Assembly: GCA_009917445.1 (NCBI GenBank) | Contig: QZEE01000003.1 | Coordinates: 62,001-126,000 of the forward strand | Source: a bacterium D16-76 | GTDB lineage: Bacteria > Bacillota > Clostridia > Oscillospirales > Acutalibacteraceae | Length of the DNA: 64,000 nt | Direction of reading: 5' to 3' | Shown here: one piece after another, positions 58,946 through 63,592 of the stretch | How positions within the stretch are numbered: the first letter of the stretch is position 1 | Layout of the letters: each line of letters starts with the position of its first letter | Program-made: the position numbers and the translations under genes | Notes under the pieces: generated by a model | Told to the model about the DNA's origin: nothing | The model's input: only the letters and a program-made list of their open reading frames with translations | The model's database searches: none

Positions 58946-58961
58946 ACACAATATATGGTAT
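58946..58961 (+). promoter_or_regulatory. Candidate NrdR box
   Basis: ACACAATATATGGTAT matches 14 of 16 positions of the NrdR consensus (acaCwAtATaTwGtgt) as I recall it, and abuts the -35 of the nrdD promoter. A weaker match starts at 58902. NrdR is the common repressor of ribonucleotide reductase genes. Confidence 0.6.
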
Positions 58962-58989
58962 TGACAGGGAGGGGGAGACCGACTATAAT
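58961..58989 (+). promoter_or_regulatory. Perfect consensus sigma-A promoter of the nrdD locus
   Basis: TTGACA (58961-58966), 17 bases, TATAAT (58984-58989). Both hexamers match exactly. The leader is ~75 bases. Confidence 0.9.
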
Positions 58990-59069: not shown

Positions 59070-61367
59070 ATGCTGAAAACCATTATAAAAAGGAGCGGGG
59101 AACAAGCCCCATTTGACGCCGGCAAAATACGGGGGGCCATTTTTAAGGCCAATGTGCGTATTGCCACGGAGAAGTTCAGCGAGGAAGAGCTGGACAGGCT
59201 GACCGAAGAAGTGGTGGCCGAGCTGGAAAAAATGAAAGAGACCCCCACGGTGGAACAGACACAAGATGTGGTGGAGGAAAAACTGATTGCGGCGGACTAC
59301 GCCAAGACGGCTAAGGCGTATATCTTGTACCGGGCGGAGCACCAGAAGCTGCGGGAGATGGACGATGAGCTGGTGAAAATCTATTCGGCGCTGACCTTTG
59401 TGCCGGCAGAGGATGCGGACATCAAACGGGAGAACGCCAACATCAACGCGGACACAGCTATGGGTACTATGCTCAAGTATGGCTCGGAGGGGGCCAAGAG
59501 CTTTTATGACAAGTATGTGATCCCGCCCCATATCGCCCAGGCCCATGCCGACGGCGACATACACATCCACGACAAGGATTTTTACACCTTGACGGAGACC
59601 TGCTGCCAGATCGATTTGATCAAGCTGTTTAAGAATGGGTTCTCTACAGGCCACGGCTATTTGCGGGAACCCAACGACATACGCAGCTACGCGGCCCTGG
59701 CGTGTATTGCCATACAAGCGAACCAAAATGAAATGCACGGCGGGCAGAGCGTGCCGATTTTTGACTATGCCATGGCCCAGGGGGTGGATAAGACCTACCG
59801 CAAGGAGTTTTTTAAGGCACTGGTGCAGTTTTTGCAGATACACAAGGGCATGCCCTACAGCCACGCCGAGGCCCTGGTGAACGCCGCCAAGCGGGAGCTG
59901 GGGGAAAAGGTGACCATGAAGAACGTGGGGAAGTACAGCGGGCGGTTTGTGAATTTCCTGCCAAGGCACCAGAAGGAGAACGGGTACGAGGAGATTATCA
60001 CCGAGGAGGCCGAGGACGCCTGCGCCTATGCCCAGGAGGCGGCCTGGCGGGAGACCGATCACGCCACCTATCAGGCTATGGAGGCGCTGGTGCACAACTT
60101 GAATACTATGAACTCCCGGGCGGGGGCCCAGGTGCCGTTTTCGTCTTTGAACTACGGCACGGACACCAGCGAGCAGGGGCGCATGGTAATCAAAAACCTG
60201 CTGCTGGCCACGGAGGCCGGGCTGGGGGATGGGGAGACGCCTATTTTCCCGGTGCAGATTTTTAAGGTGAAGGAGGGCGTCAATTACAACGAGGGAGACC
60301 CCAACTATGACCTGTTCAAGCTGGCCATGCGGGTGTCGGCCAAGAGGCTGTTCCCCAACTTTAGCTTTATTGACGCGCCTTTTAACCTGCAATACTACAA
60401 GCCCGGCGACTACGACACCGAGGTGGCCTACATGGGCTGCCGCACCCGGGTTATGGGCAACTCCCACGACCCGGACCGGGAGACCACTTGCGGCCGGGGC
60501 AACCTGAGCTTTACTTCGATTAACCTGCCCCGGATCGGGATAGAGGCGGAAAAGGATATTAAGAAATTTTATAAGCTGCTGGACGGCCGCATGGATTTGG
60601 CGGCGGAACAGCTTTTGCACCGGTTTAAGATACAGTGCAGCAAAAAGGCGTATAACTACCCCTTCCTGATGGGGCAGGGGGTGTGGATCGACTCGGAGAC
60701 CCTTACCCGCAACGACTCGGTGGCGGAGGTCTTGAAGCACGGGACTTTGTCGGTGGGGTTCATCGGCCTGGCCGAGACCTTGAAGGCCCTTACCGGCAAG
60801 CACCACGGCGAGGATGAAAAAAGCTATGAGCTGGGCTTGGAGATTATCGCCCATATGCGGGAGTATATGGACGCTATGTCGAAAAAGACGGGCTTGAATT
60901 TTACCCTGCTGGCTACCCCGGCCGAAGGGCTTTCCGGCCGGTTTGTGCGGCTGGACCAGAAAAAGTTTGGGAAGATACCCGGGGTTACGGACCGGGAGTA
61001 TTACACGAACTCTTTCCATGTGCCGGTATATTACCCCATCGGCGCTTTTGAGAAGCTGAAAAAGGAAGCGCCTTTCCATGCCTTTACAAACGCGGGGCAC
61101 ATCAGCTATGTGGAGCTGGACGGCGACGTATGCAAGAACATTGAGGCTTTTGAAAGCGTGGTGCGGTGCATGAAGGAATCGGGCATTGGCTATGGCTCGG
61201 TAAACCACCCGGTAGACCGGGACCCGGTGTGCGGGTATAATGGTATTATCGACGACGTATGCCCCCGCTGCGGCCGCCGCGCTGGGGAGGGCGTGGCCCT
61301 TTCGAAGCTGGAAGAGCTGCGGAAGAAGTACCATGATGTGCCGGATTATACGTGCTTGATACGGTAA
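59070..61367 (+). CDS. nrdD: Anaerobic ribonucleoside-triphosphate reductase NrdD, large part without the glycyl-radical domain
   Basis: This class III reductase makes dNTPs without oxygen. The 765-aa protein has an N-terminal ATP cone (residues ~1-92, from KTIIKRSGEQAPFDAGKIRG) for allosteric control. Then comes the ten-strand barrel with TETCCQIDL (Cys178/179) and YMGCRTRVMGNS (Cys457), the likely catalytic cysteines. Near the end are zinc-site cysteines 721 (DPVCGYNG), 731 and 734 (VCPRCGRR). It stops at PDYTCLIR. The C-terminal RxxGY loop that carries the glycyl radical in other NrdDs is absent and is encoded separately at 61552-61725. Start 59070 follows AAGGAAAGGA. Confidence 0.95.
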   Translation: MLKTIIKRSGEQAPFDAGKIRGAIFKANVRIATEKFSEEELDRLTEEVVAELEKMKETPTVEQTQDVVEEKLIAADYAKTAKAYILYRAEHQKLREMDDELVKIYSALTFVPAEDADIKRENANINADTAMGTMLKYGSEGAKSFYDKYVIPPHIAQAHADGDIHIHDKDFYTLTETCCQIDLIKLFKNGFSTGHGYLREPNDIRSYAALACIAIQANQNEMHGGQSVPIFDYAMAQGVDKTYRKEFFKALVQFLQIHKGMPYSHAEALVNAAKRELGEKVTMKNVGKYSGRFVNFLPRHQKENGYEEIITEEAEDACAYAQEAAWRETDHATYQAMEALVHNLNTMNSRAGAQVPFSSLNYGTDTSEQGRMVIKNLLLATEAGLGDGETPIFPVQIFKVKEGVNYNEGDPNYDLFKLAMRVSAKRLFPNFSFIDAPFNLQYYKPGDYDTEVAYMGCRTRVMGNSHDPDRETTCGRGNLSFTSINLPRIGIEAEKDIKKFYKLLDGRMDLAAEQLLHRFKIQCSKKAYNYPFLMGQGVWIDSETLTRNDSVAEVLKHGTLSVGFIGLAETLKALTGKHHGEDEKSYELGLEIIAHMREYMDAMSKKTGLNFTLLATPAEGLSGRFVRLDQKKFGKIPGVTDREYYTNSFHVPVYYPIGAFEKLKKEAPFHAFTNAGHISYVELDGDVCKNIEAFESVVRCMKESGIGYGSVNHPVDRDPVCGYNGIIDDVCPRCGRRAGEGVALSKLEELRKKYHDVPDYTCLIR

Positions 61368-61371
61368 GGCT

Positions 61372-61438
61372 GAGGCCGCGAGACGCTGTCTCGCGCTCTG
61401 CAAACCCTTTTGGGAAAGGGTTTGATCCGAAAACCACC
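61372..61438 (+). repeat. Repeat module between the two parts of nrdD
   Basis: GCGAGACGCTGTCTCGC (a perfect palindromic arm pair) then CTGCAAACCC-TTTTGGGAAA-GGGTTTG and ATCCGAAAACC. It is close to the module at 36301-36360. The remaining ~110 bases before the small gene hold only its ribosome binding site. Confidence 0.82.
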
Positions 61439-61551
61439 GGGCCTGCCTGCTGGCGTGGCTTGGGCCCGGTAGGGGCATGTGCTTTTGCGGGCGGGATGGG
61501 GAATCTTATTTATGGCTTATCTTATATTTTGAAATTTAGGAGGAATTTTTT

Positions 61552-61725
61552 ATGACAAGCGTAAAGGAATACAAGACGGAGGGCAAAGAGGTTATTATTG
61601 GCGAGGGGCGGGATTTTGAGAGGATCCGCCGTATTACGGGCTATTTGGTGGGCACGATTGACCGGTGGAACAACGCCAAGCGGGCGGAGGAACAGGACCG
61701 GGTGAAGCACACGCTGGCAAAGTAA
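61552..61725 (+). CDS. Stand-alone glycyl-radical domain of anaerobic ribonucleotide reductase
   Basis: This 57-aa protein (57 codons plus TAA) contains DFERIRRITGYLVGTIDRWN followed by NAKRAEEQDRVKH, which is the C-terminal glycyl-radical segment normally fused to NrdD; the radical Gly would be residue 30 in RITGY. It has a perfect AGGAGG (61538-61543) eight bases before its ATG and a short unique N-terminus (MTSVKEYKTEGKEVIIGEGR). It lies in a different frame from the large nrdD part, 184 bases downstream. The two polypeptides should assemble so that NrdG can activate the glycine, by analogy with GrcA/YfiD, the spare radical domain of pyruvate formate-lyase. It is followed 11 bases later by surE. 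Confidence 0.93.
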   Translation: MTSVKEYKTEGKEVIIGEGRDFERIRRITGYLVGTIDRWNNAKRAEEQDRVKHTLAK

Positions 61726-61736
61726 GGGGAGGGCCT

Positions 61737-62486
61737 ATGCATATTTTATTGGTAAACGACGATGGAATCAACGCCCCGGGGATACGTGCGCTGGCAAAGG
61801 TGCTGAGCAAGGAGCACCGCATTACAGTGAGCGCGCCCATGGAGGAACGCAGCGCGGTGGGCCATGGGCTGACAGTGCGCGTGCCCCTCTTTACGGAAAA
61901 GCGGGAGGTGCCCGGCGCGCAGGCGGCTTATGCGGTTTCGGGCACACCGGCGGACTGCGCCCGGCTGGGCGTGCTGAGCTTGGCCGAGGGGCCGGTGGAT
62001 TTGGTGGTTTCGGGCATTAACAAGGGCTTGAACGTGGCCATGGATATGCTTTATTCCGGTACGGTGTCGGCCGCTATGGAGGCGGCTATGCTGGACAAGA
62101 AGGCTATTGCGGTTTCGACCCAATGGGAGGGGGATTTTGACAAGGCCGCGGAGATTTTTGCCCGGCTACTGGCCCAGCTGGATATGGAAAAAGATATTGA
62201 TTTTATGCTGAATGTGAACATCCCCACCCTGCCCGGCCAGGAGGTGAAGGGGGTAAAGTGGGTGCCGGCGGGCCGCACGCATTTGTGGGCCGACACCTAT
62301 GAGCACCGGCAGACCCCGGATGGCAGGGACTATTACTGGCTGAAGAACCTGCAGGACGCCGCTACCCCGGATTTTGGGCTGGGCCATGACATTGGCTGCG
62401 TGGCAAACGGGTATGTGGCGCTGTCGCCGCTGGTTTATGATTTGACGGACGGCGAGGGTTTCCGGGATAAGGACTTTGAGCTGTAA
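61737..62486 (+). CDS. surE: 5'-nucleotidase SurE
   Basis: This metal-dependent nucleoside 5'-monophosphatase has 249 aa. Motifs: HILLVNDDGINAPG (metal-binding Asp pair), MEERSAVGHGLTVRVP, VSGTPADCARLG and VVSGINKGLNVAMDMLYSGT. The start at 61737 follows GGGGAGGG. It sits between the radical-domain gene and nrdG, so it may balance nucleotide pools in the same unit. No pcm or nlpD is nearby. Confidence 0.96.
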   Translation: MHILLVNDDGINAPGIRALAKVLSKEHRITVSAPMEERSAVGHGLTVRVPLFTEKREVPGAQAAYAVSGTPADCARLGVLSLAEGPVDLVVSGINKGLNVAMDMLYSGTVSAAMEAAMLDKKAIAVSTQWEGDFDKAAEIFARLLAQLDMEKDIDFMLNVNIPTLPGQEVKGVKWVPAGRTHLWADTYEHRQTPDGRDYYWLKNLQDAATPDFGLGHDIGCVANGYVALSPLVYDLTDGEGFRDKDFEL

Positions 62487-62513: not shown

Positions 62514-62843
62514 GTGGCTTTTACGGTGAACATCTACTACACAGGCGAAGGGGGCAGCGCCCGCCGGTTTGCCGAAGAGATGGTGGAAAGCGGCCTTGTG
62601 GGGCAGATCCGCGCGAAGGATGGCAACGAGCGGTATGCGTATTTCTTCCCCATGGAAGACCCGGAAACGGTGCTGCTGATCGACACCTGGCGGGACCAGG
62701 AAGCTTTGGACGCGCACCATGCTTCCCCAATCATGGGGGAGATTGTCAAGCTGCGGGACAAGTATGGCCTGCACATGCGGGTGGAGCGCTATGTTACAGA
62801 TGAGGAAGCGCCGGGGTCAGATGAGAGGTTCATCCGCCGGTAA
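62514..62843 (+). CDS. Antibiotic biosynthesis monooxygenase (ABM) domain protein
   Basis: This 109-aa ferredoxin-like dimeric alpha-beta barrel starts MAFTVNIYYTGEGGSARRFA and has YAYFFPMEDPETVLLIDTWR and DQEALDAHHASPIMGEIVKL, the typical W-x-x-x-x-ALDxHHxSP pattern of ABM proteins. Homologues act on quinones or have unknown roles. The start is GTG at 62514 with GGAGGGG upstream. It lies between surE and nrdG in one tight run of genes. Confidence 0.87.
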   Translation: MAFTVNIYYTGEGGSARRFAEEMVESGLVGQIRAKDGNERYAYFFPMEDPETVLLIDTWRDQEALDAHHASPIMGEIVKLRDKYGLHMRVERYVTDEEAPGSDERFIRR

Positions 62844-62877
62844 GAAGTGTGGATAGAAAGGGCAGGTGGGTTTTGCG

Positions 62878-63375
62878 ATGAAGCTGCGGGTTGCTGGCGT
62901 GGTGGGGGAGTCGATTGTGGACGGCCCCGGCATACGGTACGCTGTTTTTGTACAGGGGTGCCCCCATCATTGCCCGGGTTGCCACAATCCCCAGACACAC
63001 CCTTTTGAGGGGGGGCGGGAGATGGACACGGAAGAGATTTTCGCGGCCTTTCAGGGGGACCCGATTTTAAAGGGGATCACCTTTAGCGGGGGCGAGCCCT
63101 TTTGCCAGCCAGGGCCTTTGGCAGAACTGGCCAGGCGTGTGCATGGGATGGGCAAGGATGTGCTTACCTTTACCGGCTATACCTATGAACAGCTGGCGGC
63201 TATGGAGGACCCGGGGGTGCAGGCTCTTTTGGCGGAGACGGACACCTTGATAGACGGGCCCTTTTTGCAGGAAGAAAAAAACCTGGAGCTGCGCTTCCGG
63301 GGCAGCGAGAACCAGCGGGTCATTGACCTGGGGGAGACCCGGCGGATAGGGCGGCTGGCCCTGCTGGAGGACTAA
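62878..63375 (+). CDS. nrdG: Anaerobic ribonucleotide reductase activating enzyme NrdG
   Basis: This radical-SAM enzyme creates the glycyl radical on the reductase. The 165-aa protein has the cluster motif QGCPHHCPGC (Cys28, Cys32, Cys35 as CxxxCxxC), then GITFSGGEPFCQP for SAM binding, and ends with a normal NrdG-type LRFRGSENQRVID. AGGTGG lies eight bases before ATG 62878. Here it must act on a glycine carried by a separate 57-residue protein, encoded ~1.2 kb upstream in the same unit. Confidence 0.96.
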   Translation: MKLRVAGVVGESIVDGPGIRYAVFVQGCPHHCPGCHNPQTHPFEGGREMDTEEIFAAFQGDPILKGITFSGGEPFCQPGPLAELARRVHGMGKDVLTFTGYTYEQLAAMEDPGVQALLAETDTLIDGPFLQEEKNLELRFRGSENQRVIDLGETRRIGRLALLED

Positions 63376-63509: not shown

Positions 63510-63592
63510 GCATCGGGAGTCCAGAGGGGGCCTGCCCCTCTGGCAGAGCGCGAGACAGGGTCTCGCGGCCTTGCGCCGCAGGCAGAAAGGAA
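63510..63592 (+). repeat. Composite repeat before the phosphodiesterase gene
   Basis: CGGGAGTCCAGAGGGGGCCTG-like arm with CCCCTCTGG, then GCGCGAGACAGGGTCTCGC and GGCCTTGCGCCGCAGGC. It combines the first and last modules of the family. Confidence 0.75.

Follow-up and report, generated by a model that had tools for sequence, protein, structure and literature searches.

A putative two-chain class III ribonucleotide reductase with its glycyl-radical segment on a separate 57-residue protein in the Acutalibacteraceae bacterium D16-76

Glycyl-radical enzymes are described, in the passages of PMC8683613 covered here, as carrying the radical on the catalytic chain. This holds for the anaerobic (class III) ribonucleotide reductase NrdD of Prevotella copri (Protein Data Bank, PDB, entry 8p23), whose radical site is given in passages of PMC11226230 as Gly711, within a domain (residues 676-739) that contains both the zinc site and the radical loop. 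Small free glycyl-radical proteins, one of them phage-borne, are known from GrcA/YfiD and from Y06I of phage T4; according to the parts of PMC8683613 covered, YfiD and Y06I were the only validated examples as of 2021, both for pyruvate formate-lyase, and the same source asks whether other glycyl-radical enzymes have spare parts. The class II reductase NrdJa/NrdJb of Pseudomonas is split near its C-terminal zinc-finger end into two chains, both of which are needed (passages of PMC4520616 and PMC9669993). Finally, excerpts of PMC3653736 state that some organisms contain split reductase genes and describe six phage nrdD genes that are split, the breaks being tied to introns, inteins or homing endonucleases in the cases that are explained; the three coding regions of Aeromonas phage phiAS4 nrdD are left unexplained there. 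Here we describe a locus within a stretch of 64,000 nucleotides (contig QZEE01000003.1, positions 62,001 to 126,000; hereafter the window) from the bacterium D16-76, in which nrdD and a small separate gene, for which we use the name grd, very probably encode one working class III reductase in two chains, with the glycyl radical on a separate, replaceable subunit.

The locus has the same parts as the one-chain NrdDs with an ATP-cone from P. copri and Streptococcus thermophilus (9d3x), namely the barrel, ATP-cone, finger-loop cysteine, zinc segment, NrdG partner and radical motif, but the radical glycine is predicted to lie on a protein of its own. The difference from GrcA, YfiD and Y06I is twofold: those proteins belong to pyruvate formate-lyase and take over from the damaged part of an enzyme that is synthesized whole (PMC8683613, in part), whereas the window protein matches NrdD and would supply a piece that its partner never has. 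NrdJb mediates disulfide exchange in the passages covered, and the class and cofactor of the Pseudomonas enzyme differ from those of the window pair. The breaks in phage nrdD genes are mostly tied to introns, inteins or homing endonucleases (PMC3653736, in part), in contrast to a separate radical-segment gene that is conserved in cellular genomes and sometimes unlinked.

The catalytic gene nrdD (59070..61367; coordinates are those of the window, and the genes and sites of the locus given here lie on its plus strand) encodes 765 residues that match positions 1-530 of the 562 in PF13597 together with an ATP-cone, and that score over the cut-off of NCBIfam NF005497. PF02867 (Ribonuc_red_lgC, the class II chain) is not among its matches at E values up to 1. 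The chain ends in PDYTCLIR, 31 residues past the last zinc cysteine, without an RxxGY motif, which is found instead on a separate reading frame. An earlier reading of the window from its letters alone (the sequence-only reading) had described just such a truncated NrdD, and the family matches bear it out. The catalytic cysteines it had proposed also hold up, since among 30 aligned NrdDs Cys178 and Cys457 never vary and Cys179 hardly does. Its zinc-site cysteines stand in part: three are present in the zinc-finger segment (61221..61274), at 721, 731 and 734, and the position of the first zinc cysteine of P. copri NrdD is occupied by Asp718 (at 61221-61232), which is invariant in all 30 aligned NrdDs, 7 of them fused to the radical segment. 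This segment is the final part that the chain has in common with one-chain NrdD. An AlphaFold model built from 30 sequences (predicted local distance difference test, pLDDT, 83.8; predicted template modelling score, pTM, 0.79) has P. copri NrdD as its best PDB match. Alignment and family matches show that the predicted chain keeps the ATP-cone, the barrel, the putative substrate and finger-loop cysteines and the zinc segment.

The missing piece is encoded by grd (61552..61725), which specifies a 57-residue protein, FERIRRITGYLVGT, and has AGGAGG 8 bases upstream of its own ATG. The sequence-only reading had taken it for the missing radical segment; it matches PF13597 from where the large chain stops, at positions 531-562 (E 2e-8, 33.7 bits against a cut-off of 26.2). 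Three NCBIfam NrdD models also match it at their C-termini (E 1e-14 to 9e-9), below their cut-offs, which are set for whole NrdDs. PF13597 was its sole match at E values up to 1, and PF01228 (Gly_radical, the pyruvate formate-lyase C-terminus) was not matched. Gly30, already named as the expected radical site, is invariant in 19 radical proteins. Between them the two chains tile P. copri NrdD, residues 5-244 and 283-704 being covered by the large chain and 707-739 by the small one; given the domain layout of the P. copri enzyme, the cut thus lies between the zinc segment and the radical loop. These comparisons show the predicted small chain to be the homologue of two NrdD elements, the glycyl-radical loop and the C-terminal tail. 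In Selenomonadaceae and others the radical protein is longer, the motif being preceded by about 60 residues (e.g. L078:4824-5105); five of these longer proteins had no Pfam match over cut-off except PF13597, and their N-terminal part, for which a weak model (pLDDT 78, pTM 0.44) predicts a beta-alpha-beta-beta arrangement, gave no fold match at E 1e-3 or better.

The pair is widely kept in the genus. PF13597 was searched in 60 genomes, the source genome and 59 relatives, 28 of them of the same genus (20 of the 29 genus genomes reach 90% completeness with contamination of 5% or less). Of the 28 genus relatives, 27 gave a catalytic match together with a radical segment encoded separately. The sequence-only reading had asked whether the two occur side by side in related species; both pieces are on one contig in 26 of the relatives and on two contigs in G023. 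Neither piece was found in G024 (60% complete), and the catalytic match is itself partial in G002 and G014. Sequencing or assembly error as the cause of the split was rejected on the same split in these 27 relatives and in other families, and the possibility raised earlier that a local error or recent disruption had created it falls on the same count. A single break by a stop codon was likewise rejected: the starts of nrdD and grd, 59070 and 61552, are not equal modulo 3, so that the genes do not share a frame that a stop could have interrupted, and grd has a distinct start. The radical gene is under purifying selection, judged from a 38-codon core of 21 genes taken from the genus and its near relatives (median pN 0.051 and pS 0.535 over 210 pairs), in which the ratio of nonsynonymous to synonymous rates (dN/dS) has a median of 0.052 and a maximum of 0.234 over the 178 of 210 pairs with finite dS.

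PF02867 (class I/II reductase) was not found in any of the 29 genus genomes by a search that was positive in 11 of 14 control genomes, and a complete second NrdD is present in the genus only in the source genome, G007 and G018, with part of one in G006. Setting aside G024, in which nothing was found, the split pair is the only reductase found in 24 of the 28 genus relatives and is probably the only one in most of the genus. Among 19 further split genomes PF02867 was not found in 14, and the pair is the only reductase found in 11. With the pair also present in other families and phyla, the two-chain enzyme proposed by the sequence-only reading is supported.

Whether the two frames are in the end joined, by frameshifting, bypassing, RNA splicing or protein trans-splicing, into an ordinary NrdD can be judged from how the pieces are arranged elsewhere. 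The figures from a scan of genome contigs refer to the best 80 of 572 confirmed loci. By reading frame, the segment stands alone in 71 of them and is fused in 8, and the remaining one, L126, is a fused fragment lying at the end of a contig. The pieces are neighbors in 62 of the 71 stand-alone loci, each with an NrdD lacking the segment, and 54 of the 71 include an NrdG-like gene. This proximity would fit joining, and introns or inteins are known to split nrdD genes of phages (PMC3653736, in the parts covered). However, in 5 of 14 genomes given (G086, G122, G191, G240 and G264) a split NrdD has its segment far away or on another contig; in the single-contig genome G240 the two pieces, which form the only reductase found, are about 430 kb apart, the radical gene adjoining an nrdG-like reading frame (read from the table), and G191 also has a full-length NrdD. 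Moreover, the segment has its own start and ribosome site, the N-terminus of the radical protein varies freely, up to the longer forms described above, the large chain carries a tail of its own, and the roughly 20 residues ahead of the radical motif leave, in our own judgement, no room for an intein half. We consider joining very improbable. Record titles place such loci in Acutalibacter, Scatolibacter, Butyricicoccus, Massiliimalia, Lachnospiraceae, Selenomonadaceae, Bacilli, Mycoplasmatota and Desulfovibrio, although many are metagenome-assembled and single taxonomic outliers could be contamination. Among gut anaerobes, many appear to build this enzyme from two proteins. A stand-alone segment is present in 35 of 117 genomes of the order (source genome included, read from the table, with the contig-edge piece of G382 excluded). 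Two further observations concern these loci: L034, L035 and L036 are second, divergent free radical proteins (TGYLTGTxDGWN) in Acutalibacter genomes, with an adenine methylase near L034 and a SpoVG gene near L035, perhaps on integrative elements; and the NrdDs at L020, L026 and L033 have a C-terminal extension that by reading resembles thioredoxin or glutaredoxin (CPNCKMA type).

Oxygen cleaves glycyl-radical chains at the glycine. In a two-chain enzyme such damage would therefore cost the 57-residue part and not the 765-residue enzyme. We propose that NrdG makes the radical on Gly30 of the small protein, whose radical loop would then insert beside Cys457 of NrdD and hand the radical to that cysteine at each turnover, as the loop of a one-chain NrdD does. 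The window NrdD, lacking a radical segment, should depend on the small protein for activity. We infer that the small protein would dock into NrdD and be replaced after oxygen damage.

An alternative is that the small protein only serves to rescue NrdD cleaved by oxygen, in the way GrcA does for pyruvate formate-lyase, and is not an obligate subunit. The two are alike in concept (PMC8683613, in part), and 7 of 17 genomes given (G029, G043, G312, G313, G365, G376 and G385) have a complete NrdD and a free segment without a truncated NrdD; G333 is in a similar state with an extra NrdD fragment, and G327 has NrdD in pieces on two contigs. In the former genomes the partner does have a damageable radical segment of its own, as in the GrcA system, and a free radical protein beside a complete NrdD is likely to be a spare part. 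A rescue role thus fits G376 and similar genomes, but not the window, whose large chain has no such segment to be rescued, and for the window we regard it as improbable. The idea that the subunit could be replaced separately itself gains support from these genomes, together with the viral records described below. The genus with code g233 looks like a case of the spare part taking over: G376 has a full NrdD and a free segment, whereas in G340 and G397 the family match stops at position 539 and the free segment is on another contig, the NrdD of G340 ending in a short tail at the position of the G376 radical motif. The large chain of G122 ends in FERIHRITE, exactly where the motif would come next.

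The listed split chains have a tail after the zinc segment where fused NrdDs have the radical motif. In the window this tail, RAGEGVALSKLEELRKKYHDVPDYTCLIR, lies at 61278..61364 and appears in our tail table, with a helix predicted by the AlphaFold model at residues 744-753. Each whole tail was compared with its own radical protein against shuffles (z>2; L126 removed from 104 pairs); all 20 long tails exceeded them, as did 17 of the 57 mid and 15 of the 26 short ones. An EE.DR-like motif, picked after looking, is present in 16 of the 20 long tails against a shuffle mean of 0.39, the 20 tails being mutually related. The long tails are likely to represent a dead copy of the radical segment. For a tree of NrdD, 143 reading frames were reduced to 130 of the subfamily and, after removal of 15 far rows and near-duplicates, to 87 (55 split, 32 fused). 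This gave 11 state changes, at least 7 of them forced by the starred branches, against a shuffled mean of 26 with 0 of 500 shuffles as low, although the trees were quick, the count cannot separate gain from loss or transfer, and transfer between lineages can add changes. A single origin of the split was rejected (approximately unbiased test, p 3e-36 for all split rows together; 86 rows, the long-branch L244 left out). As placed by these trees, the split rows are not one clade and have several origins. A plausible history is that a free copy of the segment was first a spare part, sometimes mobile, and later took over in several lineages while the large chain's own copy decayed or disappeared.

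Viral records contain the segment as well. Among the best 80 of 423 IMG/VR loci (L164-L243; a locus spans up to 4 kb each side), 62 have the segment alone without an NrdD in the locus, 7 have it alone with an NrdD, 10 are fused and 1 is cut. Searching the whole record for 50 of these 62 loci gave matches to only the segment in all 50, 47 over the family cut-off, although the records are 8 to 95 kb long with none rated at least 90% complete, so that an NrdD outside the record is possible. Among 20 neighbor proteins from 8 viral loci, endolysin, tail fiber, primase, and radical S-adenosylmethionine (radical-SAM) or PAPS-reductase families were found in 7 loci, with no family matches among the neighbor proteins examined at L176. 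We infer that the viral copies may act on host NrdD. A wider idea, to which we give slightly less than an even chance, is that the radical glycine is an exchangeable cartridge: free proteins would be spare parts, mobile on phages and other elements and loadable by host NrdG onto host NrdD during infection, and in several lineages would have taken the place of the built-in segment, so that an obligate two-chain reductase remained, with parts possibly from different genomes. Separately, Eggerthella phage EL753P1 (L246:3843-4081) has the radical segment in two reading frames after a 952-residue nrdD.

Several observations weigh against an obligate two-chain enzyme. The source genome itself has a full-length nrdD, at G000:C72, and it could be supposed that this phage-type gene does the work while the window locus is a decayed nrdD with grd as its remnant. 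The sequence-only reading had named a full-length nrdD elsewhere, joined to decay of this locus, as telling against it; the first was found, among phage genes, but the split locus is not decayed. The C72 gene (L002; also L297 and L298) has an nrdG-like gene of its own, and its neighbors are phage genes for DNA polymerase, primase/helicase, exonuclease and RtcB. Only 2 of the 28 genus relatives have a second, complete nrdD, against 27 with the split pair, and a class I/II reductase was found in none of the 29 genus genomes. With a median dN/dS of 0.05 for the radical gene, we judge decay highly unlikely. Further points on the same side are that class I/II reductases are present in 5 of the 19 further split genomes and another NrdD in three of the 14 without PF02867 (G030, G034 and G048), that no NrdD lies within the stretch covered for 9 of the 71 stand-alone loci, that the tail signal is strong in the long tails only and, with the shared GE.V motif removed, is left in 8 of the 20 long, 4 of the 57 mid and 7 of the 26 short ones, that the window tail shows no relic signal in the whole-tail test (z 0.0), and that two other genes separate grd from nrdG in the window.

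A prior description of such a split class III reductase was not found in the open-access literature, which included passages of PMC9531940, PMC9669993, PMC4390871, PMC2795772, PMC3019208, PMC4493059, PMC11226230, PMC12662201, PMC11528403 and PMC12288474; an earlier one may exist elsewhere. The present loci provide, from many genomes, NrdD candidates for free radical proteins, some as obligate subunits and others as spare parts. With a two-chain form, radical formation, docking, turnover and oxygen cleavage could each be measured separately by adding or swapping the small protein, and the radical-only viral records suggest a small means of acting on host nucleotide supply. Surveys that demand a full-length NrdD may miss or misjudge such enzymes.

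The remaining features of the locus surround the pair. Downstream of grd, a SurE nucleotidase gene (61737..62486; PF01975, E 1e-56) and a gene for a small ABM-domain monooxygenase-like protein (62514..62843; PF03992, E 1e-11) precede nrdG (62866..63375), which scores over the cut-off of NCBIfam TIGR02491 as a dedicated radical-SAM activase and is expected to place the radical on Gly30. Upstream of nrdD, an NrdR-box-like operator (58946..58961) has 2 mismatches to ACACWATATATWGTGT, which we take to be the NrdR-box consensus; 0.14 such matches are expected in the window, and 13 of 100 shuffles had at least one. It overlaps by one base a sigma-70 promoter-like site (58961..58989) that matches the consensus at 12 of 12 positions, a consensus match of a kind found 5 times in the window stretch against 2.5 expected. 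The intergenic region between nrdD and grd (61368..61551) lists no inverted repeats of at least 12 bases and is predicted to form stable hairpins, 2 of 200 shuffles folding equally well over 61362-61551 (z -2.8). Lastly, a 27-base palindrome-like repeat at 61375-61401 and 63543-63569, on opposite strands with 1 mismatch, flanks the stretch from grd to nrdG and was seen in 0 of 100 shuffles.

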